This document shows positions 9,003 through 34,412 of a stretch of 37,701 nucleotides of DNA, piece by piece. Under the pieces are notes generated by a model. It did no database searches. It was not told the origin of the DNA and worked only from the letters and a program-made list of their open reading frames with translations. How positions within the stretch are numbered: the stretch's first letter is position 1; every line of letters begins with the position of its first letter. The position numbers and the translations under genes are program-made. Origin of the DNA: a virus; the IMG/VR virus record IMGVR_UViG_3300028196_000032, positions 1 to 37,701 of that record; one strand, 5' to 3'.

Positions 9003-9003
9003 G

Positions 9004-9011
9004 ATATTTAT
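9004..9011 (+). promoter_or_regulatory. Late-promoter-like motif ATATTTAT
   Basis: The sense strand reads AGATATTTATTAATAAAAAG, and the core ends 12 bases before the ATG at 9024. It is one of the closest matches to the motif before the terminase, portal and capsid-region genes. Confidence 0.55.
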
Positions 9012-9023
9012 TAATAAAAAGAA

Positions 9024-10558: not shown

Positions 10559-11458
10559 TTAAGTTGTTCCATCGTTCTTCTTACCAGACCCATAAATAAA
10601 CGTCTTTCCATTAATTGTAGAACGTATTTTTTCTATTAACATTTCTATAAATTTAATAACATTTTCCTTAGATAAAACTTCAGGTAATTTTATGTCCTCA
10701 CTCCATACTATACCTTCATCTTTAAATTCATGCCCAAATTTATATTCACACTTAGCTTTAATATAATTATTAGATTTTTCACCTTCTTCTTTATAATATT
10801 CCAACCTAATTCCTACAGTCATACCCATATTCCTCAATGTATCCCAGTTAGCTGAGTCAATATGTTTTGGTTCTATTATATTTTCTTCACTAGGTTGTAT
10901 ATATAATAAAATACCATTATAAGAAGCCCATACTAACGGTCTTACAGATAATTTTACTTCACTAACTTCTTTAATACCACCCATATAATCTCTATGGTTT
11001 CTAGCGTTTGCGTCACCCTCTTTAATTCCTGGTAATACTTCAGTTTCATTTTGAGTTTTAACTACATATTCTATATTATTAGTTAAATAAAATTGATCTC
11101 TATCATTTTTTTTTGACTCAATATATTCATCTAATATATCCCTAAATACAAAATTCATAAATAAATCACCTCTATTGTTCTTTTTCCTAAGTGATTCATG
11201 ATCCTTAAACAATTTATCACCATTCCAATAATAAGTAGTAGATAAATCATGTGCAACATCATAAGGAGTTTCAAAAAATTCTATTAAGAATGCTGCAGCT
11301 TTCCACCTATCAAAATCCCAAGATTTTTCAATTTCACCTGACCCCATACCAAATTTCTGATGAATAACAGATAACAACTTTTTTTCTTGTGGTGTAAACT
11401 CACTAGTAGTGTCAATTAAAAGTGATTCTAATAATACATGTTTTTTCTTAATAATCAT
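10559..11458 (-). CDS. Hypothetical 299-aa protein downstream of capsid gene, with tag-like N-terminus
   Basis: I do not recognise this protein. Its start, MIIKKKHVLLES, is basic then hydrophobic and ends in an L-x-E-S site resembling prohead-protease cleavage sites in this genome. Then come a helical N-terminal half (KLLSVIHQKFG; AAAFLIEFFET) and a beta-rich C-terminal half (VWASYNGILLYIQP; GMTVGIRLEYY). It has its own late-promoter-like motif (11476-11483) placed just after the capsid terminator. It converges on the DNRLRE-like gene. It may be a head-related or internal protein, but this rests on context and the tag only. Confidence 0.65.
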   Translation of the reverse strand: MIIKKKHVLLESLLIDTTSEFTPQEKKLLSVIHQKFGMGSGEIEKSWDFDRWKAAAFLIEFFETPYDVAHDLSTTYYWNGDKLFKDHESLRKKNNRGDLFMNFVFRDILDEYIESKKNDRDQFYLTNNIEYVVKTQNETEVLPGIKEGDANARNHRDYMGGIKEVSEVKLSVRPLVWASYNGILLYIQPSEENIIEPKHIDSANWDTLRNMGMTVGIRLEYYKEEGEKSNNYIKAKCEYKFGHEFKDEGIVWSEDIKLPEVLSKENVIKFIEMLIEKIRSTINGKTFIYGSGKKNDGTT

Positions 11459-14880: not shown

Positions 14881-15570
14881 TTAATCCGACAAAAAGTTAT
14901 CTAAAGAATCTAAAAGAATATTTTTATCTTTAGTCTCAGTAGATTCAGACATTTGTTGCTCTCTAGAAGGAGTCTCATTGTATATCCAAGAACCAGGTGT
15001 TGATGGTGATGTCACTACATCCCAACAAATTAATTCAAAATCATCTTGTACGATATTTTTTCCATCTTCTTTTTTTAGTGAACCTACACCTCTGGATGAA
15101 ACACCAATCTTCAAACCTTTCCTTAAAAGATTTGCTACTTGATCACCTTCACAAGAAATAATACCTTGTGTTACAAATCCTGGTGACATAATAATTTCTA
15201 ATTTACCCATTAATACATTACCTTCCCACCACATATCTACAATGTTGTGTGAAATTCTACTTATGGCAACAATTGAGGAGTCAGGATGATCAGCTTCACC
15301 CATTGCTCTTTTTTCGTCAATAAGTATCTTATAACTTTCTGATTCTTTCTTTAGAATAGCTTCAGGATATACCCTACCATTTCTATTCTCTACACCGTAT
15401 TTTTGTAATACTGCATAAACAACCAAAGGATCTTCAATAATTTGTTCACCTTTGGTTAGTTTGTTTATTTCATTAACAAAATGTCTATTATCTTTAGGAG
15501 ATATGTATCCAGCATCATATTCTACTAAGATACCTTTTTTATTTAACTCATTGCTTTTTAAAATTTCCAT
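14881..15570 (-). CDS. 21: Prohead core protease (T4 gp21-like serine protease)
   Basis: A 229-aa protein with the fold signature of phage prohead proteases. The catalytic His lies in GEADHP (His95), and the nucleophile Ser is in GVSSRGVGS (Ser158 or Ser159). The preceding VENRNGRVYPEAIL and following DFELICWDVVTSPS (178-191) are both typical. It matures the prohead by cutting scaffold, capsid and internal proteins after Glu in L/I-x-E sites; the capsid protein here has such a site (LLTE-A). The C-terminal 30 residues are charged and probably disordered. It has its own late-promoter-like motif at 15591-15598. The assignment is firm from motifs and gene order. Confidence 0.95.
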   Translation of the reverse strand: MEILKSNELNKKGILVEYDAGYISPKDNRHFVNEINKLTKGEQIIEDPLVVYAVLQKYGVENRNGRVYPEAILKKESESYKILIDEKRAMGEADHPDSSIVAISRISHNIVDMWWEGNVLMGKLEIIMSPGFVTQGIISCEGDQVANLLRKGLKIGVSSRGVGSLKKEDGKNIVQDDFELICWDVVTSPSTPGSWIYNETPSREQQMSESTETKDKNILLDSLDNFLSD

Positions 15571-16214: not shown

Positions 16215-16976
16215 TTATTCAGTAACTGAATTTTTTAGGTTATATATATTGTTTATATCTGTGGGGAATGATTCTATATCGAATGATGTCCTCAACAACT
16301 TATCTTTTACTTTTAAAAGTTTATCTTTTAATTCTAAATCACTATTTTCACTTAAACGATTATCAATAGTATCGATACATTCATTTTTTAATGTAGTATA
16401 AGTAACTTCTTTATCGTTATCATTACCACTTAATACGTTCTTAATAATATGTCTTTCTTCTTCAGTTATATTCGCATATCTACTATTGAATTTATTAACT
16501 GCTAATTTAGTGAGAACCGAAGGTGGTACACCTGTAGGTTCGTATTCAGATTCCATAACTATGTCTTCTTTTAACATTCTTTCTTTAAAGAAGTTAATTG
16601 ACTCTTGAATCTTTTCTAAACTATTAGGTGTTTTTGTTGTATTACGTAAGATATTAATGTGAGAATATATTTCCTCATTTTCTTTAATAATTTCTTTACT
16701 ACCTAAAATAGTATTAAGTTTCTTTATACCTTTTGATGGTTTATTATTTTTTAATAGAATAATATTTTCCTTTATATAGTCTTTTGCGTCAGATTCTGAG
16801 GTAAACTTTTTAGTCGTTAAATTTTTATATATAAGATATTCTCTTTTTAAGGTACTATCTTCTTTAAGTACCTTAAGGTATTTTTTAAATAACTTTTTAC
16901 CTGAATCATTCTTAGTTAAAATTGATTCCGATAAAATATTATTAAATGTGTCTTTTATGTATCCAAAATTAGTCAT
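16215..16976 (-). CDS. Hypothetical 253-aa helical protein at the T4 gene 67/68 position, tag-like N-terminus
   Basis: Not recognised by family. It is highly helical and Lys/Glu/Asn-rich. The N-terminus MTNFGYIKDTFNNILSES resembles a capsid-targeting tag, ending in I-L-S-E-S at a likely protease site. Further L/I-x-E sites occur inside. It lies between portal and protease genes, as T4 prohead core genes 67 and 68 do. It has a good late-promoter-like motif 16 bases upstream and a strong terminator downstream, so it is expressed as a single gene. It is a candidate prohead core or internal head protein. Confidence 0.68.
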   Translation of the reverse strand: MTNFGYIKDTFNNILSESILTKNDSGKKLFKKYLKVLKEDSTLKREYLIYKNLTTKKFTSESDAKDYIKENIILLKNNKPSKGIKKLNTILGSKEIIKENEEIYSHINILRNTTKTPNSLEKIQESINFFKERMLKEDIVMESEYEPTGVPPSVLTKLAVNKFNSRYANITEEERHIIKNVLSGNDNDKEVTYTTLKNECIDTIDNRLSENSDLELKDKLLKVKDKLLRTSFDIESFPTDINNIYNLKNSVTE

Positions 16977-17018: not shown

Positions 17019-18962
17019 TTACTTTTCTTCGTTATCAATAATACTATCTATTTCTTTAGACATTTCATCTATTTTAGAATTAATGGTGTTTACTTCATCG
17101 TCTAAATCTTCCACATTAAAAACTTTTTCATCTTCATCGATACTTTCCATAAGTCTTTTGAAGTACATATTTTGGTATTTTTTAACTTTACCATCAATCA
17201 GATCCTTTCGTTTTTCTTCTAATAAAAGATTTTCTTTTTTATTCGTAGATTCTACTGCTGCTCCTGCTTCTGCTGCTGCTGCATCTCCACCAGCATCAGT
17301 GGCTGCGGCATCTTCCATACCACCAGCTATATCTGCACCGAAGTCTCCTCCTCCGAAGTCATCACCACCAGTGTCTCCTCCCATGTCTCCACCTTCTCCA
17401 CTTTCATCACCTTCAGCACCTAACGGATCACCATATAACGTATCAACCCTATCGAATACACCGGTTTTCTTAATTACAGTAGAAGTTTGTTCCATCTCTG
17501 CACTTGCAGCTTTCTCCATTCTTTGTTGTTCTAAATCACTACGTATTTCTTCTTCTGACATACCAAGTATGTCCCTTTTAGCCCTAGTCATTGAATATGC
17601 ACCAAAACCATTACCTGCATCAGATACTGCGTCTTTATATAGTGTAACCTTTAACTGAGTCTGTTCGATTTTTAACATCTCTGCTTGTGTAGAAGGATTA
17701 TTAAGTGAAAGTGTAAAATTTTCTAATTCATCTTCTAAACCTAAAATATATAAATGAATTATCGCTATTTTATTAAGTTCTTGTATTATTGCTTGTTGTA
17801 CTCTATTAATTGTTCTAGAGAATCGAATATCTTGTAATGCTAAATTTTTACCATCACCCGTTACCTCTTCAAAACCTAAAAATGGTTTTGGAACTCTCAA
17901 AGCAGTAAATAACTTTTTTTGTAAGAACTGAATATCCGCAATTTCTGATAGGTTAGTTGCACCTGGAAGAGTATCAATTGGGCTAGGTGCGTTTTGATCT
18001 CTTACCGGTACGAAATAATCTTGATCTTGTGCCATTTGGTTATAACGAGTATCTATTTGTCCTGTTTGTTGATCAATTACTGGACTTCTTTTAAAGTTAT
18101 CTGCAATTTTATTAACATATGCCGGTACATCTTTCTCATCAATATTACCAACAAATATTTTGAATATTCTTCTTTCTGGTGCTCTGGTTACCCTATAAAT
18201 CAACATTGCATCTTCCGATAACAATAATTGTTTCCATATTCTTCTGGCTTTTTCTAAGATAGATGTCCCATAAGGTAATCTTCTGTCATCCCCTAGTAAT
18301 CTAAAGTGTGCAACTTGCCAAGCATTAAATTCCATATCTTTTTGACCCCAAACAAATTTAACTGGATTAAACTTATCCTCACTAGCTAAACTAGAGTTCT
18401 CACCAAACCCATCATTTTCTTTTCTCGCAATTTCTATATTAGGTAATTGTTTTACACTTTGTATCCCATTTTCACTATCAATAGAAAGATATAAGAAGTT
18501 ATCACCATATTTACAAGTGTTCCTAACCCACATAGGTAAATTGGTGTGTATATCTAATCTATTGAAGAATAAATCTTGTAATATCCTTCTAACCCTTTTA
18601 CTTTCAGAAAATATATTTAATACTTTGCCGTCACCATTAGGTGTAGTAGATTCTTCCATAAATATATCTAAAGCTGCCGCAATCTCAGGAAAAAATTCCA
18701 TCCCTTCGAAATCTGCATAAGAAGCTAACCTAGTAGTTTCATAATATATTGAGTGTTGGTAAATTTCATTATCTACCTTTTTCCATTGATTCGCTAAATA
18801 CGCATCTTGTTGTCTTTTTAACAACTCTTGATTATATTCATCTTTAGATTGTGTCTTTAATAATTCATCATCATTAATAGAATATCTTGATTTATTCTCC
18901 ACCTGTTTTTTTTCGGGTCCAAATAAATCACTTAATTGTTGAAATACTGTTTTTCTTGCCAT
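17019..18962 (-). CDS. 20: Portal protein (T4 gp20-like)
   Basis: A 647-aa portal subunit of the gp20 family. Recognisable stretches are YYETTRLASYADFEGMEF (about 74-91), PEIAAALDIFMEE, the stem/wing region WVRNTCKYGDNFLYLSID, FNAWQVAHFRLLGDDRRLPYG, the long helix TSILEKARRIWKQLLLSEDA, and GDGKNLALQDIRFSRTINRV. Twelve copies form the head vertex through which DNA enters. T4 gp20 is 524 aa; the extra length here is mostly a C-terminal Gly/Asp/Ala-rich linker (about 520-585) followed by a charged helical tail. It has its own late-promoter-like motif, 27 bases before the start, and follows terminase with a 52-base gap. The assignment is firm. Confidence 0.95.
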   Translation of the reverse strand: MARKTVFQQLSDLFGPEKKQVENKSRYSINDDELLKTQSKDEYNQELLKRQQDAYLANQWKKVDNEIYQHSIYYETTRLASYADFEGMEFFPEIAAALDIFMEESTTPNGDGKVLNIFSESKRVRRILQDLFFNRLDIHTNLPMWVRNTCKYGDNFLYLSIDSENGIQSVKQLPNIEIARKENDGFGENSSLASEDKFNPVKFVWGQKDMEFNAWQVAHFRLLGDDRRLPYGTSILEKARRIWKQLLLSEDAMLIYRVTRAPERRIFKIFVGNIDEKDVPAYVNKIADNFKRSPVIDQQTGQIDTRYNQMAQDQDYFVPVRDQNAPSPIDTLPGATNLSEIADIQFLQKKLFTALRVPKPFLGFEEVTGDGKNLALQDIRFSRTINRVQQAIIQELNKIAIIHLYILGLEDELENFTLSLNNPSTQAEMLKIEQTQLKVTLYKDAVSDAGNGFGAYSMTRAKRDILGMSEEEIRSDLEQQRMEKAASAEMEQTSTVIKKTGVFDRVDTLYGDPLGAEGDESGEGGDMGGDTGGDDFGGGDFGADIAGGMEDAAATDAGGDAAAAEAGAAVESTNKKENLLLEEKRKDLIDGKVKKYQNMYFKRLMESIDEDEKVFNVEDLDDEVNTINSKIDEMSKEIDSIIDNEEK

Positions 18963-19014: not shown

Positions 19015-20808
19015 TTACTTTATACCAAATAACCAATTATATTCCCCATTATCGCTATTTCCATTACTTTGTTTAGGTTCATAGGTAGGTGTATTACTAT
19101 AAAAAGGGTTAACATGTGTTTGATTAGTCGTACTTTTACTCCCATTATTACTTACCGTAGTCCAACTATCTAACATTGCTCTAGTTTGGTTCTCAATCTG
19201 CTTTAATTTTTTAAATGTTGTTTGTACAACAAATAAAGGCATTGCTAACGCCATAATTATATCATCATGATACCCATCCATATGATCAGGTCTACCATTT
19301 CTATAAACAAAAGTTTTTAATTCAGAAATTAATCTTACTGACCTAATAAGTGTTTTATTCTCTCTAATATGTTCTTCTAAATCACTTACCATTTGTAATC
19401 TACTACTACCCACATTAAAACCTGGTACTTTATCACCTTGTTTATATAGTGTTTTTGCGTATTTTTCACTTAGTTTCCTACTTTTAGGGTCATCATAATG
19501 TAAATGAGTATAACCCATCTCTATTAATTTCATCACTGTAGATACACCCATACCACCGGTAATATCTACTACTGTATAAGCATTATATAAATTACCATAC
19601 TTATAAACTATTTCTGCTAATAAATCCGGTGGTAATTTATATTTAAATTCTGCGACTTGTTCTAAATTTTCAAAATCTAATATAACAATAGTAGAACTAT
19701 CTTTACCATCCCCTCTGGACACATCAACACCCATTATATACTTATGCCCTTCTTCTGGTTCTTTCCATATCCACATAGACTTCTCCATCTCTGCCTTATA
19801 TTTTGGTTCTCTTACATTGTTTTTTTCTTGAAACTCAATATATTCATCATCTATAACATTACCACCTGAAGATACAAAAGACACATCTAATTCTTGTGCT
19901 ATTTGTTTTTTATCTCCATTCATATCTCTACACATCTCAGAATACCAATGAGAAGTAGCCTTCCAACCATCATTGACCATAACATTATAATCTTCTATTC
20001 TAACACTATCTGTTTCATAAGTCTTACCACTATACTCCCACCTTAATATTTCTCTACCAACTGTCTCACACTCTATTAATTCATCTTCACCTCTCACCCA
20101 TTTTAATCCTCTATTATATCTAATATCTTCATGCCATCGCATTTCAATTATATTGAAATTGTTGTCACCTTGTTTAGCACCATCATAAGTTTTATAATAT
20201 AATGCGTCTTGTCCGTTTGGGGTAGATATTAGTGTAACCTTACCACCCGTACCTAACGATGTTAATGCGGCACCAAACACTTCTGCACCATTATCGATAA
20301 AGGCTGCTTCATCCATTATTAAAAATGTTGGCGTATAACCCCTTAATGCATCTTTAGATGTTGCTAGTGCTTTTACTTCACATTGAGTGTCTTTGGTTTT
20401 GATATGTCCTTTAGATTCGATAGATAAGTAAGAATCTTCCTCACCGATACCCCATAACCAATGTGGTATCTGATCTAAGAAATCTTTTATCTTCTTAAGA
20501 AATTCTTGTGCTAGTGTTTGTTTATTCGCTAGTACCAGTACTTTCCATGGATTATTAGGATCACCAAACGCAATTTTTACTGCAATATATGCTGCGGTTG
20601 TAGTTGATACACCTGCCTGTCTAGGTTTGGTTACTATGTTACGATTATTATTTTCGTATGATTTAATTATTTCTTTTTGTTTATGGAATAATTTAAAAGG
20701 TACAAAACCTTTTTGTGTTAAATCATATGTTTTAAGAAATGTCTCTATAGCGTATATAGGATCACCTAAACACTTAGCATAAACTTTTAATTGTTCTCCT
20801 CTATCCAT
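19015..20808 (-). CDS. 17: Terminase large subunit (T4 gp17-like packaging ATPase/nuclease)
   Basis: The 597-aa protein carries both motor and nuclease halves. Adenine-binding FHKQKEII is at 41-48 and variant Walker A KPRQAGVSTT at 61-70. Walker B FLIMDEAAF lies at 162-170 and coupling motif STPNG at 195-199. In the RNase H-like nuclease, acidic residues occur at IMGVDVSRGDG (Asp362), TVVDITGG (Asp414/415 region) and YHDDII (Asp515/516). It docks on the portal and pumps DNA into the prohead. It is preceded by a late-promoter-like motif and directly followed by portal. The small terminase subunit is not recognised in the window. The assignment is very sure. Confidence 0.97.
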   Translation of the reverse strand: MDRGEQLKVYAKCLGDPIYAIETFLKTYDLTQKGFVPFKLFHKQKEIIKSYENNNRNIVTKPRQAGVSTTTAAYIAVKIAFGDPNNPWKVLVLANKQTLAQEFLKKIKDFLDQIPHWLWGIGEEDSYLSIESKGHIKTKDTQCEVKALATSKDALRGYTPTFLIMDEAAFIDNGAEVFGAALTSLGTGGKVTLISTPNGQDALYYKTYDGAKQGDNNFNIIEMRWHEDIRYNRGLKWVRGEDELIECETVGREILRWEYSGKTYETDSVRIEDYNVMVNDGWKATSHWYSEMCRDMNGDKKQIAQELDVSFVSSGGNVIDDEYIEFQEKNNVREPKYKAEMEKSMWIWKEPEEGHKYIMGVDVSRGDGKDSSTIVILDFENLEQVAEFKYKLPPDLLAEIVYKYGNLYNAYTVVDITGGMGVSTVMKLIEMGYTHLHYDDPKSRKLSEKYAKTLYKQGDKVPGFNVGSSRLQMVSDLEEHIRENKTLIRSVRLISELKTFVYRNGRPDHMDGYHDDIIMALAMPLFVVQTTFKKLKQIENQTRAMLDSWTTVSNNGSKSTTNQTHVNPFYSNTPTYEPKQSNGNSDNGEYNWLFGIK

Positions 20809-20849: not shown

Positions 20850-21686
20850 TTAAATTGCTACTAAATTACCATTTTTCCACGCCTCATAGTTAGGACCTAA
20901 TTCATATGTAATGGTTCTACCATCCCTAACTTTTTTAACTACACCTGATGCTACTGCAGCCCTAAAGAATGCTGAGTGTTGTCCCGTTGTTCTACCCCTA
21001 GAATTAATATACTTTAAAAAACCTTCTTTTGTCTTTTTCTCTCTATCGGTAATATAATCTATTAGGTCTTGTAACATACCATCTTTCTTTTGGAATGTGA
21101 GTCCTGCGGTTTTAGGGAAAACTTTTAAATTATTCTGTTCTGCAAAATTGTTTGTTATATCTGTTATTAAACTATAAAATCCACGACTTCTTATTTTATC
21201 TTTTAAATTAGACGCCATTTGTATGGCTTTTTTAGGTGGGTAAGTTTTAAAATAAAAATCTAAAACTTTAGGGATGAGAGTTAATATTTCATGTACAGTG
21301 TCTTCTTCCCCAATACTATCATTAAAAAACCATAATATATCATATAACTCAAATAATTTTTGTTGAGGGGGTAAATCAGAATTTACAACATCATCAGTTA
21401 ATTTTGTACCTATTCTACTCATATATCGAATATAAGGTCTAGGATTAAAACCTAAAAATCCTGTTTGCCTTTTTCGATTCAACAACTTATTCCCAATTAA
21501 TGTAACTAACTTATCGTATCTCATAACTTCATCAACACTAAGACCATAAACATTTACAATAATATCAAACGCATCCCCGATATCTTTAGAATTAATTTCA
21601 TCATATACTTTATCAATAAGTCTACTATGGTTAGTATCTTCTGATATAAACTTACGATATTGTTCCTCAGTTAATTTAATCTTCAT
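20850..21686 (-). CDS. Tagged hypothetical protein with C-terminal winged-helix-like domain, 278 aa
   Basis: The protein starts MKIKLTEEQYRKFISED, nearly the same N-terminal tag as the genes at 23321 and 23728, ending in an I-S-E site. The middle is helical. The last 60 residues (EGFLKYINSRGRTTGQHSAF, then ASGVVKKVRDGRTITYELGP) look like a winged helix: a recognition-helix stretch followed by a beta-hairpin and a YELGPNYEAW ending. It may bind DNA or a protein partner. It lies in the tagged-protein operon with a 4-base gap after 21691. Function is unknown; a DNA-bound internal head protein is one possibility. Confidence 0.65.
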   Translation of the reverse strand: MKIKLTEEQYRKFISEDTNHSRLIDKVYDEINSKDIGDAFDIIVNVYGLSVDEVMRYDKLVTLIGNKLLNRKRQTGFLGFNPRPYIRYMSRIGTKLTDDVVNSDLPPQQKLFELYDILWFFNDSIGEEDTVHEILTLIPKVLDFYFKTYPPKKAIQMASNLKDKIRSRGFYSLITDITNNFAEQNNLKVFPKTAGLTFQKKDGMLQDLIDYITDREKKTKEGFLKYINSRGRTTGQHSAFFRAAVASGVVKKVRDGRTITYELGPNYEAWKNGNLVAI

Positions 21687-21690
21687 AATA

Positions 21691-22929
21691 TTACGTACTC
21701 ATTTCTAAATAATTATCTAAACTCTCCTCAAACCACTTTTCCGTTTGATTACTATCAGGATAATAATAATCTAAATTAGGTAAAGATAATAAATCCATTT
21801 CTTCATCTAATGTTTTTTTAAGTGCATCTAAAAAATAAGACTCTTGTTCTTCTGGCCACGCACTTTCAACATCAATGTAGTGTTCTAATACTTTATCTAT
21901 TAATTCTGTCGGTATTGGTACTTTTAAATCGTATCTTACACTATCTCCACGCTTAGTATTTTCTACCCACTCTGGTTTACCATCAAATAAGTCAATGATT
22001 TCTGATTTTCCACTACTAAATATATCGCTTTCTACTAAATCATTTATTGCTCTATCATATGCACTGCTAATATCCCCCCTTAAACCACTAAACTCACTAC
22101 GTTCTAACAAAAATAAAAGAATTTCTTCCCCATCTACTTCTTTATTTTTTATTTGTGATTTTATTTTATCAATAAACACCTTATTTAGTTCTAAGAAATC
22201 ACTATCGGTGTCTACCTCTACACCTATTTCATATAATTCATCATTCATATCATCATCGACCATAATTTTATCAGTATACGCTGGCATAGATTCTATGATA
22301 CTATCCATTGCTTTTGGTGTCATATCTGAGACTATCTCATCCATTGGGGTATCATAATAAGAAAAGAAATCACTATGATCTTCACTAAATACCTGTTCTG
22401 CCAAATCCCTATCCTTAAATAATTCTGCGAACCCATTCCAATCATCAACAGATAATACCATATTAGGGTATAATCCTTCGGTGTCATTAAATGACATATT
22501 ATCATAGTAATTAGTTTTAAGTACTTTTTCATCTTTATATGATGCACCAGTAACAAACTCTTTATTAAACCAACCTAACTTTTTCAATGTACTAAATATA
22601 TTACTATGTTCTCTCCATCTCGCTAAATCTTCTATCTCGAACTCACTAAATATATTACCACTATCTTCCTCATTCCATTTAGAATTAGGGTCTAATGTCC
22701 ATTTTATAAAAAAGTATAAAATTACTTCATAGTCTAACGCAACCATCTCACCAAAACTATGTAAAATATCTGCAACATTATTGTGTTTAAAACCTGTATT
22801 ATCTTGACTATCATTTTCATCTCTCCACATAGGAAAAAACTCCCTATTAAACAGACGATACATCATGTTTTCTATTTTAGGATTATCCTCAATACTTTCG
22901 TTAATTATATGTTGAAAGTTTAAATTCAT
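21691..22929 (-). CDS. Hypothetical acidic 412-aa protein with tag-like N-terminus
   Basis: The N-terminus MNLNFQHIINESIEDN has the hydrophobic helix plus I-N-E-S pattern of candidate prohead-protease sites, in a shorter form than its neighbours. The rest is acidic and mostly helical, with many Asp/Glu/Trp/Tyr residues and no motif I recognise. The start overlaps the stop of the upstream zinc-ribbon gene by ATGA, so the two are translationally coupled. It is a candidate internal or head-associated protein; no enzymatic role is visible. Confidence 0.62.
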   Translation of the reverse strand: MNLNFQHIINESIEDNPKIENMMYRLFNREFFPMWRDENDSQDNTGFKHNNVADILHSFGEMVALDYEVILYFFIKWTLDPNSKWNEEDSGNIFSEFEIEDLARWREHSNIFSTLKKLGWFNKEFVTGASYKDEKVLKTNYYDNMSFNDTEGLYPNMVLSVDDWNGFAELFKDRDLAEQVFSEDHSDFFSYYDTPMDEIVSDMTPKAMDSIIESMPAYTDKIMVDDDMNDELYEIGVEVDTDSDFLELNKVFIDKIKSQIKNKEVDGEEILLFLLERSEFSGLRGDISSAYDRAINDLVESDIFSSGKSEIIDLFDGKPEWVENTKRGDSVRYDLKVPIPTELIDKVLEHYIDVESAWPEEQESYFLDALKKTLDEEMDLLSLPNLDYYYPDSNQTEKWFEESLDNYLEMST

Positions 22930-23321
22930 AATTTTTTAATTCTTACTTTTAAATCTCCATCTCCTTTTATTACCCTATGGTATACTTCTTTGGGGATAAG
23001 TGTTCTTTCAGTTAAAGGTTTAGGTATTTCATTATCTAATTGAATCATCCAATTAGTATCACCAATAGACTCTACTAACCTATCTTCCCTATCTCTATGC
23101 CACACTAATTCTGTATTATCTATATTATTGGTAAATGTTCTAATATGGTATCCCTCTTCCATATATTCAGTAAAAGGGTAATTATTTTCTTTTTTCCATT
23201 CATTAAAAGAAGTAATATCAAAATCACCTTCCTTAGAATCATAACCACATTTATGACATAAAAAAGGATGATCATCCCCCCTTTCAATTTCCCAACTCCA
23301 ATGACAATTATTACACTTCAT
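22926..23321 (-). CDS. Zinc-ribbon protein with C-terminal W-H-R-D domain, 131 aa
   Basis: The N-terminus holds two CxxC knuckles: Cys3/Cys6 in MKCNNCHWSW and Cys22/Cys25 in FLCHKCGYD. This is a compact zinc ribbon of a type I associate with phage proteins. The second part contains HIRTF, ELVWHRDREDRLVE, NWMIQLDNEIPKPL and YHRVIKGDGDLKVRI, probably a small beta-barrel domain (cupin-like at best; not certain). It is the one gene in the tagged block that lacks the basic N-terminal tag. It is coupled on both sides, by TAATG to the upstream gene and by ATGA to the downstream one. Zinc binding is a confident reading; the role is unknown. Confidence 0.68.
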   Translation of the reverse strand: MKCNNCHWSWEIERGDDHPFLCHKCGYDSKEGDFDITSFNEWKKENNYPFTEYMEEGYHIRTFTNNIDNTELVWHRDREDRLVESIGDTNWMIQLDNEIPKPLTERTLIPKEVYHRVIKGDGDLKVRIKKL

Positions 23322-23716
23322 TACTTTGGGTAATTATTAAAAGGGTTACCATATTTATCATGACTTGTGTAATAATCTTCTGTATCATCATAGTCATCAT
23401 CTACAGGAAATTCCTCATCATAGTCATCATCTTCAGTAAATTCCTCTTCACTGTCAGTTTTTTTATTCATAAAGAAATCAAATACACTATCAATATTTGT
23501 TTTAGATTCACTTATCTTATCGTCTGCCCAATCGTGTCCATCCGCTAATGTGGAATCTACCCAATAGGGATTAAAATTTTCCAACATCATATCAATTTGT
23601 CGTCTCATTTGTTTAAGATTACTAAAGAACATATAGTTTTCAGTTTTCCTATCTTCACTGATAGTTCTTTTTACAATTCTCCTTAAATCTTTTTCTGTCA
23701 ATTTTATCTTTTTCAT
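23321..23716 (-). CDS. Tagged small acidic protein, 131 aa
   Basis: I chose the ATG at 23716 rather than the one 21 bases upstream. It follows an A-tract leader, avoids overlap with the 23728 gene, and gives the MKKIKLTEKDLRRIV start that parallels the neighbouring tagged genes. The tag runs to TISED, a candidate protease site. The body has a Met/aromatic helix (MFFSNLKQMRRQIDMM) and then an Asp/Glu/Tyr-rich tail with a duplicated DDDYDEEF-type unit. Without the tag it is an acidic, mostly disordered polypeptide. No function is recognised; it fits a prohead-targeted internal protein. Confidence 0.65.
   Translation of the reverse strand: MKKIKLTEKDLRRIVKRTISEDRKTENYMFFSNLKQMRRQIDMMLENFNPYWVDSTLADGHDWADDKISESKTNIDSVFDFFMNKKTDSEEEFTEDDDYDEEFPVDDDYDDTEDYYTSHDKYGNPFNNYPK
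23385..23444 (-). repeat. Two tandem 30-base repeats in an acidic tail
   Basis: Units 23385-23414 and 23415-23444 differ at 2 of 30 positions and encode two copies of the ten-residue EEF(T/P)(E/V)DDDYD unit. It is in frame and likely arose by slippage. Confidence 0.85.
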
Positions 23717-23727
23717 ATCTTTTTTTT

Positions 23728-25026
23728 TTACCACCATGTTCCACCACCAGATAAACCTAATTTCTTAGCGTACCTTGGAAGTCTACAAGACCAATATCCT
23801 GCCATACATTTATCATTATGTTTACCCTTAGAACAACCATGTCTAGCGTCATAAGCTTTCTTTCTATCTGGTTGTGTAAGTTTAGCTCTTAACCCACCAC
23901 TACCAAATCTAATTTGTTTTACCCCAGATGGGTTTGATTTTGTTTTTTTAACACAACCACTTACATAAACTTTATACGCTTTACCACCAGAAGAACTTCT
24001 TTGTGGTGAACTAGTCTTTACAGTCTTACCTCTAAATTTCGCTTCAGTTAATATCTCATTGTCTTCCATAGGGATATCCAACCAAACCTCTTTACCTTCA
24101 AATATTGCTTTTCTACCAATATCTGTTTTAAGTAATTCTTCATCCTTAAAAGATAAATTAACTTTATTACTATTATGTAATTTTCTTACTTCGTTAATTA
24201 AATTAAAAAAAGATTCACTACCGTATCTATAAATGTTTTCTGATAAAGATATTTGATTATCTAAATGATATCTCAACCCCTCACTTATAATTGTTCTATT
24301 TTCAGTAATCATCATCCTATTAATGTTCACCGATTCATTATTTTTAGATTTTCTTTTTTTTGGTTTGTACCCTTTTACCTTAATTGGGCTAGGAGATTGT
24401 CCTTTACCTGACTTACCGTCATTCTTTTCTTTTTCTCTTTTACGTCTACATGCAGAGTCTTTCTTTTCTTGTGACATATTAGATGCAACACTTTTTGCTC
24501 TACAAACAGGATAACCACCTTTATCAGAATCATCCCTACCACAAGATGGGTGTCCACCACCTTTCTTTTTTCTACATATGTTTACCCAAGGTCCTTGTGG
24601 TTGTTTAGAACCTTTCTTCTTTTTTTTTGTACCGAACCAAGTTGCTAAATCTTCATCTAACCTTTCTACAACTTCTAACTCACCTATTTCGAAAGATTCA
24701 TTTTTTTTACCACTACAATAACTACCACTACATTTTTTGTTACCATCTAAACCTGCAATTGTACCTTTACACACTTGTACTGCATATCCGTTAGCATAAG
24801 CCGATGGGTAAACATCATACTTTGCTTTTGCAGCCCTCTTACCTCTAGCACATAATGTATTCTTCTTTTTCTTAGATTTAGTACTAGTAGATTTACGGTT
24901 TTTTCTTTTTTTCTTTCTACCTTCATCTATCGATTCTTCTTCAGAAAATAAACCAGTAGACTTACCATCAAAACGCATTTCATTCAAAACTTTCTTTAAT
25001 TGTTCTTCAGTTAACTTAATTTTCAT
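23728..25026 (-). CDS. Tagged, highly basic protein with three four-cysteine modules, 432 aa
   Basis: The start MKIKLTEEQLKKVLNE is the prototype of the N-terminal tag in this block. Three modules follow, each with exactly four Cys. Module 1 (about 56-105: C59, C86, C99, C104) contains KYDVYPSAYANGYAVQVCKG. Module 2 (145-193: C151, C162, C175, C193) contains GPWVNICR and GGYPVCRAK. Module 3 (348-415: C358, C398, C407, C414) contains ARHGCS and CMAGYWSCR. I associate these small domains with uncharacterised phage proteins (DUF5872/DUF6321-like); they are not functionally defined. The linkers are Lys/Arg-rich and hold candidate prohead-protease sites, namely SIDE-G, IISE-G and ILTE-A, the last matching the capsid site. 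A DNA-associated internal head protein is the best guess. Confidence 0.72.
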   Translation of the reverse strand: MKIKLTEEQLKKVLNEMRFDGKSTGLFSEEESIDEGRKKKRKNRKSTSTKSKKKKNTLCARGKRAAKAKYDVYPSAYANGYAVQVCKGTIAGLDGNKKCSGSYCSGKKNESFEIGELEVVERLDEDLATWFGTKKKKKGSKQPQGPWVNICRKKKGGGHPSCGRDDSDKGGYPVCRAKSVASNMSQEKKDSACRRKREKEKNDGKSGKGQSPSPIKVKGYKPKKRKSKNNESVNINRMMITENRTIISEGLRYHLDNQISLSENIYRYGSESFFNLINEVRKLHNSNKVNLSFKDEELLKTDIGRKAIFEGKEVWLDIPMEDNEILTEAKFRGKTVKTSSPQRSSSGGKAYKVYVSGCVKKTKSNPSGVKQIRFGSGGLRAKLTQPDRKKAYDARHGCSKGKHNDKCMAGYWSCRLPRYAKKLGLSGGGTWW

Positions 25027-25041
25027 TGTAATAGTTTCTTA

Positions 25042-25049
25042 ATAAATAT
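25042..25049 (-). promoter_or_regulatory. Late-promoter-like motif opening the tagged-protein operon
   Basis: The sense strand reads TTAATATTTATTAAGAAAC, 15 bases before the ATG at 25026 and directly after a terminator. It would drive 23728, 23321, 22926, 21691 and 20850. Confidence 0.55.
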
Positions 25050-25060
25050 TAAGGAAGAGC

Positions 25061-25084
25061 AAAAAAAATCCCACAATGTGGGAT
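25061..25084 (-). terminator. Intrinsic terminator after the 25106 gene
   Basis: On the minus strand, ATCCCAC (25084-25078), a 3-base loop and GTGGGAT (25074-25068) form a 7-bp stem followed by eight T (to 25061). It ends the 30113-25106 operon, 22 bases after the last stop. Confidence 0.88.
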
Positions 25085-25105
25085 ATTAATTTTATTAAAA
25101 TAGTT

Positions 25106-26530
25106 TTAAAGATATTTAGACAACATACCTACAGTATCAAAATCACCCGCATCTAAAGCGTCATCGATAATACTCTGTATTTCACTAGGTGACATTTCAG
25201 AATAATCTACCTCTACATCCACTTCGTCAGAAGGTTCATCTTGTGATGGATTAATACCCGCATCAACCATTAAATCATCTAATCCATCCTCAAAGTTACC
25301 TTCATCACCAATAATTAAATCATCTAATTCCTCATCTTCATCCGCCATATGTAATTCTTTTAAGTGTGCAATTACTTCTTTACATTTTGCACTGTTAGAT
25401 AAAATCTCTTTCATAAAGGTATGAAATTGGTGTGCCGGTAGTTTACTTAATTCATGAAAGAACCATTGTTTTAACTTATAATCATCGTCATCTATACAAG
25501 CAACGAACTTCTCCCACATACCTGGACCTAATCTCATCCCCCATATTTCACCTTCTACCGTATCGGCCCTATCAATAACATATTTTTGTTCTTCAAAATC
25601 TAAATGTCCTTCACCCCAATTGGATGCGGCTAATTCCATAGATCCTTTAATTAGTTCGTGCACTAATAGTGGAAATATCCACGCTTTAGCTTCTACTACT
25701 GGTTCTTCTTCTTCTTCCTCTTGTTCATTACCTTCTTCATCTTTAGGTTTTTCCCATTTAATTTTTTCTACTCCACCTGCTTGACCTCCCATTGCTTGAT
25801 CTGGAATAACCCAGTATTGGAAATCTGCCAATGACATTAATTTACCATATAAACCCATTAAACGAGGATCAATCTTATCTAGTTCATCTGCGACCATATG
25901 AAAAATATAGTGACCTTTTTTCGCTGCACCCTGCATTAAAGCGTTTAAAACATTTCTTTTATCCACTTCTATTTCTAATTCTTCCATTCTTTCAGCACTT
26001 TTAGATTGGAATTCTTCTTCCTCTTCTTCTTCCTCATCATCATTTTCCATGTTAAGTGGTGAACCTGGTGGTAATAATTCTGCATCTAACATATCTTCAG
26101 GAATATCAAATTCTTCACTAACTATATCAACTGCTAATTGTTCTAATGCTTCCTTATGTTGGGTTTCTATTTGAGATACTTCTTGCATTATTCTCATCAT
26201 CTCCATCATCATTTGAGGGTTGATTCTTTCTATACCATGATACCTTTTAACTTTATTAATAATGTCTTTGAAACGTGCACTGGCTAATTTTTCAGAATAG
26301 TTTTGATCTGTTCCGGTTATAGGTAAACCTTTATTTCTACCAAAAGTATGTTCACCACTTCTTAATTTATCTTCTAAACTAGGATTCATTCTTTCGGGAT
26401 GATTTGCATCATATTGGATACCTTCATTAAGTTTTTCAATTCTTTTTAACTCACCTTTTAACATTTGGTGTTCCTTTATTACTTTCTTAGTAATTTTATC
26501 TAAATCTATTTTAATTTTTACCTTTCTCAT
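25106..26530 (-). CDS. Acidic virion-associated candidate with tag-like N-terminus, 474 aa
   Basis: The protein begins with a basic helix (MRKVKIKIDLDKITKKVIKE), then KRIEKLNEGIQYD, where L-N-E-G fits the protease-site pattern. Long acidic tracts follow (about 155-175 and 268-278), then a folded, Trp-containing helical domain (AWIFPLLVHELIKGSMELAA through KWFFHELSKLPAHQFH) and a strongly acidic tail with DDAL/DAGDFDTVGMLSK. I do not recognise a family. It is the last gene of the 30113-25106 unit, before a terminator. The tag and composition suggest a head or internal protein; the C-terminal domain may bind a partner. Confidence 0.62.
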   Translation of the reverse strand: MRKVKIKIDLDKITKKVIKEHQMLKGELKRIEKLNEGIQYDANHPERMNPSLEDKLRSGEHTFGRNKGLPITGTDQNYSEKLASARFKDIINKVKRYHGIERINPQMMMEMMRIMQEVSQIETQHKEALEQLAVDIVSEEFDIPEDMLDAELLPPGSPLNMENDDEEEEEEEEFQSKSAERMEELEIEVDKRNVLNALMQGAAKKGHYIFHMVADELDKIDPRLMGLYGKLMSLADFQYWVIPDQAMGGQAGGVEKIKWEKPKDEEGNEQEEEEEEPVVEAKAWIFPLLVHELIKGSMELAASNWGEGHLDFEEQKYVIDRADTVEGEIWGMRLGPGMWEKFVACIDDDDYKLKQWFFHELSKLPAHQFHTFMKEILSNSAKCKEVIAHLKELHMADEDEELDDLIIGDEGNFEDGLDDLMVDAGINPSQDEPSDEVDVEVDYSEMSPSEIQSIIDDALDAGDFDTVGMLSKYL

Positions 26531-26540
26531 TTCTTTTGTT

Positions 26541-27251
26541 TTATCCTATACTATATAATGAAGTCCACATAACCCAAGCATCTTTTGCCATTTTCTCAAA
26601 CACCCTTTGTACGTTTCTTGTTTCATGATTATTATCAGTATTACTAATTCTCGCCAATGCTCCCCTTATTAATATGTCTCTTACTTCTCTTTTATTATCT
26701 AATAAATAGTTAATGATTTCTATTTTTTCTTCTAATGAATCTAATTCACTTTGATATAAACCAATGTCCTCCCCTTCGTTTTCTATATCATACTCTAATT
26801 CTTCTTTTTGTTGTTCTAAAGACTCTAAATCCATACTTTGCCCATATAACCATCTTTCTAAATCAGACTTAGCCCAATTTAATAATGGATGTGCACCAAA
26901 CATATTAATTAAACCACTTTCTCTAATTTTCTCTAAATACTTAATTAACAACTTAACTTCTGATCCTTGTAGTTCATTAGTAAATCTAGGGAAATCATAT
27001 TTATCTCTTCTTGCTTCACCTAATAAATCAGATTTTCTATACTTTTTATACCCACCCTCTTTTTTGAATTTAATATATTCTACTAAATCTTTTTTTTTCA
27101 TTTTGGGTTTTATATCTTTATTTAAAGGTTTCATTTCTTCATCCATATTTTTAAAACCATCAGTAGCATAATATAATTTTACTTGTTTATCTGTGAAAAC
27201 TCTCCCACTAGGACTAACATTTTTATTTTTACCTACTTTAGTAAATGGCAT
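26541..27251 (-). CDS. Hypothetical 236-aa protein with SPSGR-KQVKLYYAT N-terminal domain
   Basis: The first 35 residues contain KVGKNKNVSPSGRVFTDKQV followed by KLYYATDGF, a small conserved-looking domain I associate with phage proteins of unknown function. A basic stretch then leads to DLLGEARRD, an L-G-E-A site that fits the prohead-protease pattern and would release the N-terminal 80 residues. The rest is helical with a coiled-coil stretch (LESLEQQKEELEYDIENEGE). It sits in a tight operon, with gaps of 4 and 10 bases. No enzyme motifs are seen. It may be a head-targeted protein with an alternative tag. Confidence 0.62.
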   Translation of the reverse strand: MPFTKVGKNKNVSPSGRVFTDKQVKLYYATDGFKNMDEEMKPLNKDIKPKMKKKDLVEYIKFKKEGGYKKYRKSDLLGEARRDKYDFPRFTNELQGSEVKLLIKYLEKIRESGLINMFGAHPLLNWAKSDLERWLYGQSMDLESLEQQKEELEYDIENEGEDIGLYQSELDSLEEKIEIINYLLDNKREVRDILIRGALARISNTDNNHETRNVQRVFEKMAKDAWVMWTSLYSIG

Positions 27252-27255
27252 TTAA

Positions 27256-27714
27256 TTATCTTCTTAAATTCTCTTTTACCATATCTTCGATACTAACTTC
27301 GTATTGTGGATTATCTTTTAAGTTAGGAGATATATAATCAAACATCTTTTGCCCGTATACATCATATAATCTTTTAATTATTTTTTCAGGATTTTTTCTC
27401 ATATACCTTAATACTGACGGTGGAATTTCTTCACTGTACTGTCCAAAAATATCCTCAATTTCCCCTTCTCTTGGAGTTTGTTTATACTTTTTTCTACTAT
27501 ATGTGTCTTTCATTTCGAATTCTTCCGAAATACCATCAACCATATCTTTTTGTACTTGAGCTAATTCTTTTTGAGCTGCCGTTAGTTCTTTTACTGCTAC
27601 AGTTCTATCCTTCATTTCATCAGTAGCTGGTGAATTTTCTGATAATACATTTTCCATTAGTTTTCTTCTAACTGCTCTTTTAATTTCTGATTCGTATATT
27701 TTTACTTTTTTCAT
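27256..27714 (-). CDS. Tagged hypothetical protein, 152 aa
   Basis: The N-terminus KKVKIYESEIKRAVRRKL is the same kind of basic amphipathic helix as in neighbouring genes and runs to ENVLSENS, a candidate L-S-E cleavage site. The middle is a coiled coil (KELTAAQKELAQVQKDM). A small helical domain follows (PPSVLRYMRKNPEKIIKRLY through GQKMFDYISPNL). I do not recognise it. It is packed with 27716 (1-base gap) and 26541 (4-base gap). Confidence 0.63.
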   Translation of the reverse strand: MKKVKIYESEIKRAVRRKLMENVLSENSPATDEMKDRTVAVKELTAAQKELAQVQKDMVDGISEEFEMKDTYSRKKYKQTPREGEIEDIFGQYSEEIPPSVLRYMRKNPEKIIKRLYDVYGQKMFDYISPNLKDNPQYEVSIEDMVKENLRR

Positions 27715-27715
27715 T

Positions 27716-28114
27716 TTATCCGTTTATTAATTCTTTATTATAAGTTAATACCATATCTTTTTCATATAGTTTAGATTCTACTGAGTCTATTTTCTCACCA
27801 AACTCAAAGAATAATCTTTTTTCTGGATATTCATCATATCCTTCTAAGTTTTCCCAAGCCATTGCTATAATACCATCTACGGCATCCCACATAGCAAATG
27901 AATCAGATTCTTGTATGACATCTAATTTTAAATCTCCTGTTAATGAACCAGTTTTTTTTATAAATTTTTCTTCTGGTGACTCAGGATTTCCTGATGCGGG
28001 GTATGCATCCCAACCCTCACCGTCAATATCAGTTATAATATCAGAAAAGAGAAATTCATATATGAAGTTCCCTTTCCAATTTTTCCCAACCTTATTTATA
28101 TAAACTAAGTTCAT
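27716..28114 (-). CDS. Hypothetical 132-aa acidic protein
   Basis: A small acidic protein starting MNLVYINKVGKNWKGNFIYE with alternating beta and loop segments (FLFSDIITDIDGEGWDAYPA; RLFFEFGEKIDSVE). It has no basic tag, Cys or catalytic motif. It is packed between the long acidic gene 28116 and the tagged gene 27256 with one-base gaps, so it is surely co-expressed with them. Function is unknown; a chaperone or regulator for its acidic neighbours is possible but unsupported. Confidence 0.62.
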   Translation of the reverse strand: MNLVYINKVGKNWKGNFIYEFLFSDIITDIDGEGWDAYPASGNPESPEEKFIKKTGSLTGDLKLDVIQESDSFAMWDAVDGIIAMAWENLEGYDEYPEKRLFFEFGEKIDSVESKLYEKDMVLTYNKELING

Positions 28115-28115
28115 C

Positions 28116-29744
28116 TTATCTATACATTCCTTTTCTTTTTATTGATGTTTTTTTTCTTTCAGAAATTGCCTTTGGTTTTGGATCTTTCGCTGGTCTAGGT
28201 ATCTTTTTCCATCTAGGTTTCTTTTTTCCTGGTTTAGTAGTTGGTTCTGCAATTCCTGGTCTAGTAGTTGGTGCTGGTGAATTACCCATTAATGAATCAA
28301 AATCTATTTCTATAAATTCTTCATCATCAAAAGTTGGGTGATCTAAGTCACCATCCATATTACTATCCATATCTAATCTGTTTGGGATTTGATCTCCATC
28401 TCTATCTAAATCACCTGATGCTTGTAAGTAATTTTGTCCTGTTGCAATTGCATCAACTACAGTCATATTTTCTTCGTGTACTACACCTACATCGTCACCC
28501 GCTAATTCTGCCGTATCATTGGTGATATCTAATTCCTCATCTATATATAAATCTTCATCGATATGTAAATCACTTTGTTCTTTAAGAATTTTATTTACAG
28601 AACTATTAATGTTTTTATTTAAAAAGTTTTCCATTAATTGTTTTTTAGAAAACCTTTTAGACTCTTCTACTTTATGTGTTTTACCATCAGAAACAGTTTC
28701 TAAACCCTCAAAATGTTTTTTAAGTATATCACCAAACTCTTTAGTGATTTTATCCATAAATGACTTCTTATCTTTTTTTGAAGCTTTTAACTTTTCTAAC
28801 TTGTCATTAAGCATTTTATCTAAAGATTTTTCAAACGTAGTTTGTTCATTTAACTCATCTTCACCTTCTTCTGCAAATGGATCTTCACCACCTTCTTCTT
28901 CTACATCCATATCGATATCTACTGATTCTTCACCACCTCCTTCTAATTCACCATCTTCTTCGTCTTCACCTTCAATCTTAGCAATGATATCTTCAACATC
29001 TTCATCAGGAATTTCTTCCCAATTAATTGCAGAAATAATAGAATTAATTACATATTTGTCTAATTCCGCATCTGGTTCATCTTTATCTCTTAATAACTGT
29101 CCTATCTTACCAGTTAATTTTTGAATCTTTTTAGTTTCTCCGTCTCCATCATCATCACCTTCTTCTTCTACATCTACATCCATAGATACTTCTTCTTCTT
29201 CCCCACCGAATGGATCTTCTTCCATAGATATTTCTTCTTCATCTGCAACTTCATCTTCTACTGGTGCCGATGCTGGTGCATCTACTTTGATTACCGATTT
29301 TTGATCTTCGATAACCTCCTTTTGTTCTTTTTTAATTACAACACCACTAGCGTTTGCTTCTTTTACTTCTACCGCATCAGACTCAAATAAGTTAGTATTA
29401 CTTTTAACACCAAAAGATTCATTTAACATATCAAACTTTAAATTTAATTGTTTTAATGCTTCAGCATAAGAACCGTACCTTTCAATATTTTTATTTTGTA
29501 AACCACCGATATAATTAAAATCTTCAGCTAAAATATTGCCAGAAGTTTTTTCAGTAGTTTTTATAAAATAACTATGATTTTCTCTTACGATACCATAAAT
29601 TACTCCGTTAGCACCTTTTTTTACATTATCGACTTCAGATGTTGAAGTACTTTCATTTAAGGTACTCATTTTACCCATTAGATCTTTAATTCTATCTAAT
29701 TTGTCTTGACCTTTAATTTTTTTTGGATTTACAAAATTTTTCAT
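28116..29744 (-). CDS. Acidic scaffold-like protein with DxDxDG calcium-type loops, 542 aa
   Basis: Residues 43-110 form a folded segment (GVIYGIVRENHSYFIKTTEK, then DFNYIGGL and SYAEALKQLNLKF) that I associate with phage head proteins of unknown role. It is preceded by a helix ending STLNES and followed by MLNES, both protease-like sites. The central part (about 160-300) is extremely acidic with two EDPF/MDVEEEG repeats. Residues 445-468 contain DLDRDGDQIPNRLDMD and SNMDGDLD, two DxDxDG loops like those of calcium-binding thrombospondin-type or EF-hand-like repeats. The C-terminus is Pro/Lys-rich. It resembles a second scaffold or an internal protein. Leader A-tracts replace a ribosome-binding site. 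Confidence 0.62.
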   Translation of the reverse strand: MKNFVNPKKIKGQDKLDRIKDLMGKMSTLNESTSTSEVDNVKKGANGVIYGIVRENHSYFIKTTEKTSGNILAEDFNYIGGLQNKNIERYGSYAEALKQLNLKFDMLNESFGVKSNTNLFESDAVEVKEANASGVVIKKEQKEVIEDQKSVIKVDAPASAPVEDEVADEEEISMEEDPFGGEEEEVSMDVDVEEEGDDDGDGETKKIQKLTGKIGQLLRDKDEPDAELDKYVINSIISAINWEEIPDEDVEDIIAKIEGEDEEDGELEGGGEESVDIDMDVEEEGGEDPFAEEGEDELNEQTTFEKSLDKMLNDKLEKLKASKKDKKSFMDKITKEFGDILKKHFEGLETVSDGKTHKVEESKRFSKKQLMENFLNKNINSSVNKILKEQSDLHIDEDLYIDEELDITNDTAELAGDDVGVVHEENMTVVDAIATGQNYLQASGDLDRDGDQIPNRLDMDSNMDGDLDHPTFDDEEFIEIDFDSLMGNSPAPTTRPGIAEPTTKPGKKKPRWKKIPRPAKDPKPKAISERKKTSIKRKGMYR

Positions 29745-34374: not shown

Positions 34375-34406
34375 CAAATATAATGATATTTATTATTAAA
34401 GACAAA
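34375..34406 (-). promoter_or_regulatory. Bacteroidetes-type promoter for the methyltransferase
   Basis: On the minus strand, TTTG (34406-34403), exactly 20 bases and TATATTTG (34382-34375) match the TTTG-N20-TAnnTTTG consensus. The late-promoter-like motif of clpC, on the other strand, lies inside its spacer (34386-34393). Confidence 0.7.
34386..34393 (+). promoter_or_regulatory. Late-promoter-like motif for clpC
   Basis: The sense strand reads ATGATATTTATTATTAAAG, with the core ending 19 bases before the ATG at 34413. It shares its DNA with the spacer of the opposing methyltransferase promoter. Confidence 0.5.
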
Positions 34407-34412
34407 TCAAAT

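Follow-up and report, generated by a model that had tools for sequence, protein, structure and literature searches.

A shared N-terminal tag on unrelated proteins of phages from seas and lakes, most likely for packing and delivery with the phage DNA

Introduction

Why should a run of neighbouring phage genes, whose products are otherwise unrelated, begin with much the same short stretch of residues? The question is raised by a viral DNA of 37,701 nt (IMG/VR record IMGVR_UViG_3300028196_000032, positions 1 to 37,701; hereafter the window), in which a co-directional cluster on the minus strand (20850..29744), directly upstream of terL, holds most of the genes that carry such an N-terminal tag. 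Intergenic gaps within the cluster measure -4 to 79 bp, and 41 bp separate it from terL. A sequence-only reading of this DNA had proposed that the tagged proteins are loaded into the prohead, trimmed by a gp21-type protease and ejected into the host. L/I-X-E is the cleavage motif of T4 gp21, and capsid-targeting sequences (CTSs) are 10-19 residues long (PMC9026906). Literature searches on capsid targeting in marine phages turned up mainly work on T4, SPN3US and P1; a full-text search of the literature did not find the letters of the tag, and an earlier description elsewhere is possible.

Results

Tagged genes and head genes of the window

All genes and motifs named in the sequence-only reading were located in the window. 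The tag of gene 20850 (278 aa) is MKIKLTEEQYRKFISE-D (21639..21686, minus strand, as are all features listed here; the hyphen after the Glu marks the candidate cleavage position). In gene 23321, MKKIKLTEKDLRRIVKRTISE-D (23654..23716) precedes the body YMFFSNLKQMRRQID; translation probably starts at M8 of the listed open reading frame, where most relatives begin. Gene 23728 (432 aa) has MKIKLTEEQLKKVLNE-M (24979..25026) followed by basic Cys-containing modules, and gene 27256 (152 aa) has a divergent form, MKKVKIYESEIKRAVRRKLMENVLSE-N (27637..27714). Gene 25106 (474 aa) had been grouped with these four, and a propeptide-like N-terminus is indeed present, MRKVKIKIDLDKITKKVIKE...KLNE-G (26423..26530), but its sequence departs from the LTExxL core. 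The shorter forms reported alongside, ending in INES, LNES, ILSES and LLES, are all present as well: MNLNFQHIINE-S in gene 21691 (22897..22929), LNE-S within the N-terminus (29652..29744) of the acidic, 542 aa product of gene 28116, MTNFGYIKDTFNNILSE-S in gene 16215 (16926..16976) and MIIKKKHVLLE-S in gene 10559 (11426..11458). The internal LGE-A of gene 26541 is likewise there but carries little weight; many relatives of this gene have a tag-like start instead, for example MKKRDIIKGLINE.

The head genes are encoded on the same strand. The gp21-type prohead protease (Peptidase S77; 14881..15570) matches phrog_207 (E 5e-43) and T4 gp21 in PDB entry 5jbl (E 4e-17), and its catalytic His and Ser, in GEADHP and GVSSRGVGSL, align with GELNHP and GVSSRGLGSL of T4. 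It is precisely at these two residues that the 5jbl chain (GELNAP, GVASRG) and the sequence of the T4 genome differ, as would be expected of catalytic mutants. Profile, PDB match and catalytic residues together bear out the matching protease proposed for this position. The major capsid protein (gp23; 11552..13294; phrog_138, E 9e-66) has the LLTE-A site previously reported, a candidate cleavage site seen in the sequence at LLTE60-A61 that would close a propeptide encoded at 13115-13294; LL(T/N)E-(A/S) is kept in most relatives. An acidic scaffold candidate (13333..14766), placed at the gp22 position by gene order and sequence, contains several hydrophobic-x-E sites (IIEE, LLEA, IVES) and had no family match in the profile search; it is the likely partner of the tag. 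A gp20-type portal protein (17019..18962; phrog_213, E 3.5e-61) and the terminase large subunit (19015..20808; phrog_2, E 3e-47) complete the set. Gene 16215 lies between portal and protease, where the T4 gene order has gp67/gp68.

Recurrence of the tag on unrelated bodies

The tag has the consensus MKxIKLTESxLxRIVKRxIxE, a basic amphipathic helix in which the TE of the core is near-invariant. It is about 12-36 residues long (median 21), with a mean net charge of +2.3 and an amphipathic moment of 0.49, against 0.29 for shuffled sequences. A profile built solely from the five window tags reached at least 10 bits with 41 of 882 N-termini, 0 of 4204 internal segments and 1 of 8820 shuffled N-termini, and with none of 975 N-termini from random viral contigs. 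In a held-out test on eight related genomes, with every homologue of the window proteins taken out and a cut-off of 8 bits, 51 of 1178 N-termini matched versus 3 of 4889 internal segments (p = 3e-33), and these matches comprised 35 distinct bodies. Altogether, about 138 clusters of unrelated bodies bear the tag, at 5-24 per genome fragment and dispersed genome-wide. Recurrence on unrelated proteins, for which the sequence-only reading had proposed a profile search, is borne out, and so is its statement that the bodies are unrelated. The tag had been described as a feature of neighbours at 20850-29744, which holds in the window, but the tagged genes of relatives spread beyond that region; the extent of the tag had been understated, since it is found across the genome and again in many environmental phages of the same kin. 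Within 257 Gb of prokaryote genomes, the strict tag pattern occurred in one MAG only. When two consensus tags were compared by tblastn with 50,697 phage records, no match came back, a result made uninformative by short queries and low-complexity filtering.

Might the tag be a functionless leftover, either inherited from a common ancestor or copied as the 5′ end of a gene? Tags mostly share codons a little more often than expected, which would fit such an origin, but the agreement stays close to expectation (for example, 0.58 versus 0.49), the bodies are unrelated, and the L-x-E end survives insertions and deletions; this explanation is highly improbable. With codon agreement near expectation, tag similarity is kept at the protein level. 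The codon test leads us to reject recent copying of tag DNA as the main cause.

The terminal L-x-E site

[LIVMF]-x-E closes the tag in 127 of 136 families versus 62 expected (z = 13), and a hydrophobic residue directly before the Glu, with no spacer, is underrepresented (z = -6). The main positions of the Glu are +10/11, +15 and +19, which are one-helical-turn steps. Across the tag families P3 is L, I or V, and P1′ is most often S, then Q, then N. The terminal Glu is conserved despite varying flanking tag sequence, and the hydrophobic-x-E arrangement is retained when the site moves by one residue. In relatives of gene 25106, for example, conservation of the Glu at 36 reaches at least 90% behind a variable and gapped segment, and the conserved body (IxYDxxHPERM) starts right after the site. 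Close relatives keep HIIxE in gene 21691 and L(T/N)ES in gene 28116, those of gene 16215 conserve [ILV]xE-(S/A) with a variable x, and the homologues shown for gene 10559 have (L/I)LE(S/A). After the tag Glu, a wider choice of residues occurs than at the capsid site of the window, with its Ala/Ser; this counts against a T4-like capsid-targeting role.

A basic amphipathic helix might also take proteins to the inner membrane and stay uncleaved, a role that the positive charge and clear amphipathic moment would fit. Membrane targeting is nevertheless improbable, as it leaves unexplained the near-invariant TE, the hydrophobic-x-E end with its conservation, and the link to the S77 protease.

Link between the tag and the S77 protease

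S77 is encoded on 27 of the 70 tag-bearing contigs tested. Among the other 43, neither TerL nor the gp20 portal is present on the 11 long contigs, and only one of the 32 shorter ones encodes TerL and stops about 2.6 kb past that gene. Wherever a head module can be recognised on a tag contig, S77 is there too, bar the one contig that ends soon after terL. The sequence-only reading had named a tag equally frequent in phages without a gp21-type protease as a refuting outcome; these 70 contigs did not show it. In a small control of random contigs, S77 was present in five of seven with TerL and absent from two of seven; support for the association therefore comes chiefly from the lack of counter-examples and from four S77-free phages. 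Module 1 of gene 23728 is tagged in S77 phages (the window; Flavobacterium phage immuto, VGKVNKAYIENIIKEILSE) and is stand-alone and untagged in P-SCSP2 and HTVC023P, two complete phages that lack S77; likewise, the S77-free phages Kolga and CRP-738 have module 3 untagged. On this evidence, the tag is restricted to phages with an S77 protease.

Bodies behind the tag

Gene 20850 encodes a helical body whose C-terminal domain is winged-helix-like. In its AlphaFold model, confidence is low for the tag (blocks 50 and 58) and about 90 for the body, against which the tag is poorly packed; Foldseek aligned winged-helix chains over ~70 residues (prob 0.9-1.0), at E-values that are not significant. The predicted structure of 25106 (mean pLDDT 77) had no fold match, and neither 25106 nor 16215 had a relative in the phage collection. 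The modules of 23728 belong to phrog_27331 and phrog_23735. In relatives the body of 23321 occurs behind several different tags, and that of 27256 in some cases behind canonical LTESDLNRIVK tags. Tagged cargo in related phages includes several murein hydrolases, among them lysozymes with LysM or SH3 domains. Other tagged cargo (Nudix, thioredoxin, HAD) could work in the cell without packaging, a point against the capsid-targeting reading.

Murein hydrolases might suggest a tail- or baseplate-targeting signal, since the lysozyme that T4 uses for entry sits on its tail (gp5) and relatives of the window have tagged lysozymes. However, the genes at 4243-10499 on the plus strand, which only their position marks as tail-like, are untagged, and the tag ends in the motif of a head protease; we regard tail targeting as very improbable. 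Alternatively, the tagged proteins may be targeted to the prohead as assembly or core components that are consumed or degraded there, and not as ejected effectors. The 16215 and 28116 families are conserved and located among head genes, the 25106 body lies near head genes in most relatives, and T4 core proteins are likewise cleaved at L/I-x-E (PMC9026906). Many tagged bodies, however, are enzymes or occur in a single genome, and lysozymes with LysM or SH3 domains are unlike core proteins. Such a role is rather unlikely for the tagged set; it is likely true of some members, not all.

Discussion

The tag is very probably a lineage-specific capsid-targeting propeptide that works like those of T4, serving a large, exchangeable cargo with several murein hydrolases. 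While the prohead is assembled, the helical tag would dock unrelated proteins to its scaffold core, and the phage's own S77 protease would cut after the terminal [L/I/V]-x-E, leaving the mature proteins free inside the head. They would remain packed with the DNA and enter the host along with it, as an exchangeable cargo. Packaging and trimming are well-supported but unproven predictions; scaffold docking, cleavage, presence in virions and ejection are what we infer from the sequences. Prohead loading, trimming and ejection, as first proposed, are supported at this level, with residence inside virions, cutting and host entry as expected fates.

The T4 proteins IPI, IPII, IPIII and Alt, cut by gp21, likewise join a short N-terminal [L/I]-x-E propeptide to unrelated bodies, with S77 in the same genome. 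T4 ipII and ipIII start with MKTYQEFIAE-A, and gp23 has FLTE-A. Between MKTYQEFIAE and the tag MKIKLTESQLKRIIKE, only MK and I-x-E are in common, and we therefore class the tag as CTS-like in its working, not as a proven homologue. It is also longer (median 21, versus 10-19), the residue after the Glu is varied, unlike in T4 internal proteins, and a genome fragment with as many as 24 tagged genes is unusual beside the handful in T4. The lack of further shared letters with the T4 tag and the high number of tagged genes count against the reading. In phiKZ and SPN3US, the proteases gp175 and gp245, respectively, likewise remove head-protein propeptides after x-x-E as the head matures, many head proteins are ejected, and P1′ in SPN3US prefers Ser, as do the tags here. 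There are differences: the phiKZ motif is S/A-x-E, many propeptides exceed 100 residues, those of SPN3US are N-terminal on eight substrates only, and the portions consulted of that literature describe no short tag common to many proteins. Two phages with S77, Methylophilales phage Melnitz (Kyanoviridae) and immuto, show repeated I-x-E/L-x-E starts on unrelated proteins (MQGFKTFLSE-A, MKKFSEIIE-A, MKKSQLRQIIKE; read by eye, with no statistics), in letters that differ from those of the window tag.

For these large T4-like phages of seas and lakes, packing into the virus head and delivery with the DNA is the most likely use of the tag. We lean towards a broader proposal, that a lineage of large environmental T4-like phages uses a general protein-delivery code in which a cleavable tag makes many genes virion-carried, host-injected effectors. 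The exchangeable payload may then well amount to 5-24 or more proteins per genome, murein hydrolases included, far above the few of T4. If this is right, many hypothetical proteins of environmental phages would be virion cargo predictable from their first 20-25 residues, and the tag would provide a sequence rule for picking out candidate anti-defence proteins and injected effectors, as well as a ready-made means of loading proteins into large phage heads. Capsid targeting, for which T4 has been the main object of study, would then also seem to be widespread and diversified.

A shared N-terminal tag on unrelated proteins

The 37.7 kb window is a contig of a T4-like myovirus whose minus strand carries genes for terminase (phrog_2), gp20 portal (phrog_213), gp21 protease (phrog_207) and gp23 capsid protein (phrog_138). 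Comparison with the T4 record shows that the portal, protease and capsid genes are in T4-like order. The window's gp21 shares 40-43% identity with the proteases of Microcystis phage Mel-JY01 and Flavobacterium phage immuto. Freshwater phages of related appearance, with a matching complement of head genes, have been assigned to Bacteroidetes (PMC9723584). Immediately upstream of the terminase gene are the tagged genes, which run in its direction with gaps of -4 to 79 bp and are therefore probably expressed together with the head genes. An Hsp20 chaperone and a ClpB/ClpA-like AAA protein are also encoded in the window (32885-33349; 34383-36878).

The sequence-only reading proposed that neighbouring proteins, among them those encoded at 20850, 23321, 23728, 25106 and 27256, share an N-terminal tag and nothing else. 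In the window plus eight related sequences, a profile built solely from these five N-termini scored 10 bits or higher on 41 of 882 N-termini, none of 4204 internal segments and 1 of 8820 shuffled N-termini. When homologues of all five proteins were removed from eight related genomes, a threshold of 8 bits recovered 51 N-termini against three internal segments (p = 3e-33), and the N-termini fall into 35 distinct body clusters. Both results bear out the shared tag; an iterated profile found none among 975 N-termini of random viral contigs at 10 bits. Relatives and pattern-matched contigs together yielded 482 proteins with the tag, whose bodies, unrelated as proposed, form 138 clusters; this count varies with the threshold used for clustering, and a few proteins with the lowest scores may be false members. 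Genome fragments of 56-198 kb carry 5-24 tagged genes each, scattered across the genome beyond the head-gene neighbourhood. The strict pattern occurs in at least 120 stretches of viral contigs, whereas 257 Gb of prokaryote genomes gave only three contigs (L419, L420 and L421). All three come from a MAG with the label Alphaproteobacteria (UBA3650) and are probably binned phage DNA.

A candidate cleavage site ends the tag

The tag consensus is MK(K/I)I(K/R)LTES(Q/D)Lx(R/K)IV(K)..IxE. The Thr, together with the Asp, Gln or Glu that follows three residues later, resembles a helix cap, the segment is amphipathic by computation, and AlphaFold predicts for the 20850 protein a short, low-confidence helix at the tag, ahead of a well-folded body. 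The informative part is the end, a hydrophobic residue, any residue and Glu (h-x-E), found in 127 of 136 families against 62 expected from shuffles, with hydrophobic residues depleted immediately before the Glu. Counted from the core Leu, this Glu lies mainly at +10/11, +15 or +19, in steps of one helical turn, and is followed most commonly by Ser, then by Gln, Asn, Glu, Asp and Gly.

Retention of the Glu, or of h-x-E, within families argues for a putative protease site at the tag end. In the 25106 family the stretch ahead of the body is variable and gapped, yet conservation of Glu 36 reaches 90% or more, with forms such as LNE/G, LTE/A, IVE/A and LRE/A, and the conserved body starts directly after it. 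The site is shifted by one residue in some members of the 20850 family, with h-x-E retained. The family of 16215, which has a shorter tag, shows [ILV]xE with variable x and then Ser or Ala, and the capsid protein has LL(T/N)E followed by Ala or Ser.

Association with a gp21-type protease

L/I-X-E is the published motif of T4 gp21, and capsid-targeting sequences are described as N-terminal propeptides of 10-19 residues (PMC9026906). In the T4 record, ipII and ipIII start with MKTYQEFIAE/A, and gp23 contains FLTE/A. The window protease (14881-15570) matches T4 gp21 at both catalytic residues, which confirms the expected gp21-type (S77) enzyme.

S77 was found in 18 of the 29 tag contigs that reach about 94 kb or more; the other 11 had neither gp20 portal nor terminase and are thus fragments that lack the head module. 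Among 41 shorter tag contigs, nine have S77 above the cut-off, and only one of the remaining 32 (G059), all tested for terminase, encodes that enzyme, about 2.6 kb from the contig end. An equal occurrence of the tag in phages without such a protease had been named as evidence against packaging; none of these 29 and 41 contigs was found to have a complete head module lacking S77.

One of the shorter tag contigs without a clear S77 has a weak match, below the cut-off (G063:C1:3472-3891, E 1.7e-4), within a 930-aa open frame. In contig G009 (L118:13490-15301) an intein (Pfam Intein_splicing 1e-9, LAGLIDADG_3 1e-7) interrupts the gp21-type protease just ahead of the catalytic His (GE/C...HN/CDHP), and that at G041:C1:125480-127138 looks similarly split.

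Relation to T4 capsid targeting

On the evidence available, the tag probably functions like the T4 capsid-targeting sequence. The two have only MK and I-x-E in common, so the tag counts as a new variant, without homology being demonstrated. We consider targeting plus cleavage of the tagged proteins likely. By analogy with T4 and giant phages, at least some of the cargo would probably be ejected; some tagged proteins may instead be core components consumed in the prohead. T4 gp2, the DNA end protector (L430:14062-14886), starts with MAIFQIINES, close to the 21691 start MNLNFQHIINES (22897-22929), a likeness that may be chance.

Behind its tag, the 23728 protein has several basic modules. Short, free-standing versions of at least one of these are encoded by each of four complete phage genomes without S77 (P-SCSP2, HTVC023P, Kolga and CRP-738), and they start almost directly at the module (small basic homologues at L427:2492-3470 in P-SCSP2 and L428:2492-3520 in HTVC023P). 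In the T7-like P-SCSP2 they lie between the scaffold and capsid genes, which suggests that they serve the head in that phage as well. The S77-bearing phage immuto instead has VGKVNKAYIENIIKEILSE ahead of the first module. In a small sample read by eye, several unrelated proteins of immuto and of Methylophilales phage Melnitz begin with an MK-type stretch that ends in I-x-E or L-x-E. Those of Melnitz include MKNFKNHIAE/E and the T4-like starts MQGFKTFLSE/A and MKKFSEIIE/A (L429:12203-21701; one of the proteins with such starts is nucleotidyltransferase-like by eye). Capsid targeting thus probably extends to Kyanoviridae.

Tagged cargo

Among 97 tagged representatives, most have no assigned function. 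Pfam, with which NCBIfam concurs, identified phage lysozymes, a tail-lysozyme-type domain combined with SH3, domains of the LysM, peptidoglycan-binding and cell-wall-hydrolase types, and also Nudix, thioredoxin and HAD; PHROGs added a DNA methyltransferase. Untagged proteins of one relative include thymidylate synthase, IMPDH, a sigma factor, RNA ligase, portal, gp23 and S77. T4 IPI acts against a restriction enzyme (PMC9026906), and other cargo could likewise act early in the host. Independent tagged murein hydrolases (L117:9566-10117, L408:10640-11494, L172:1229-2152 and L109:15405-16244) are candidate entry enzymes packed in the head and, if delivered along with the DNA, would aid entry.
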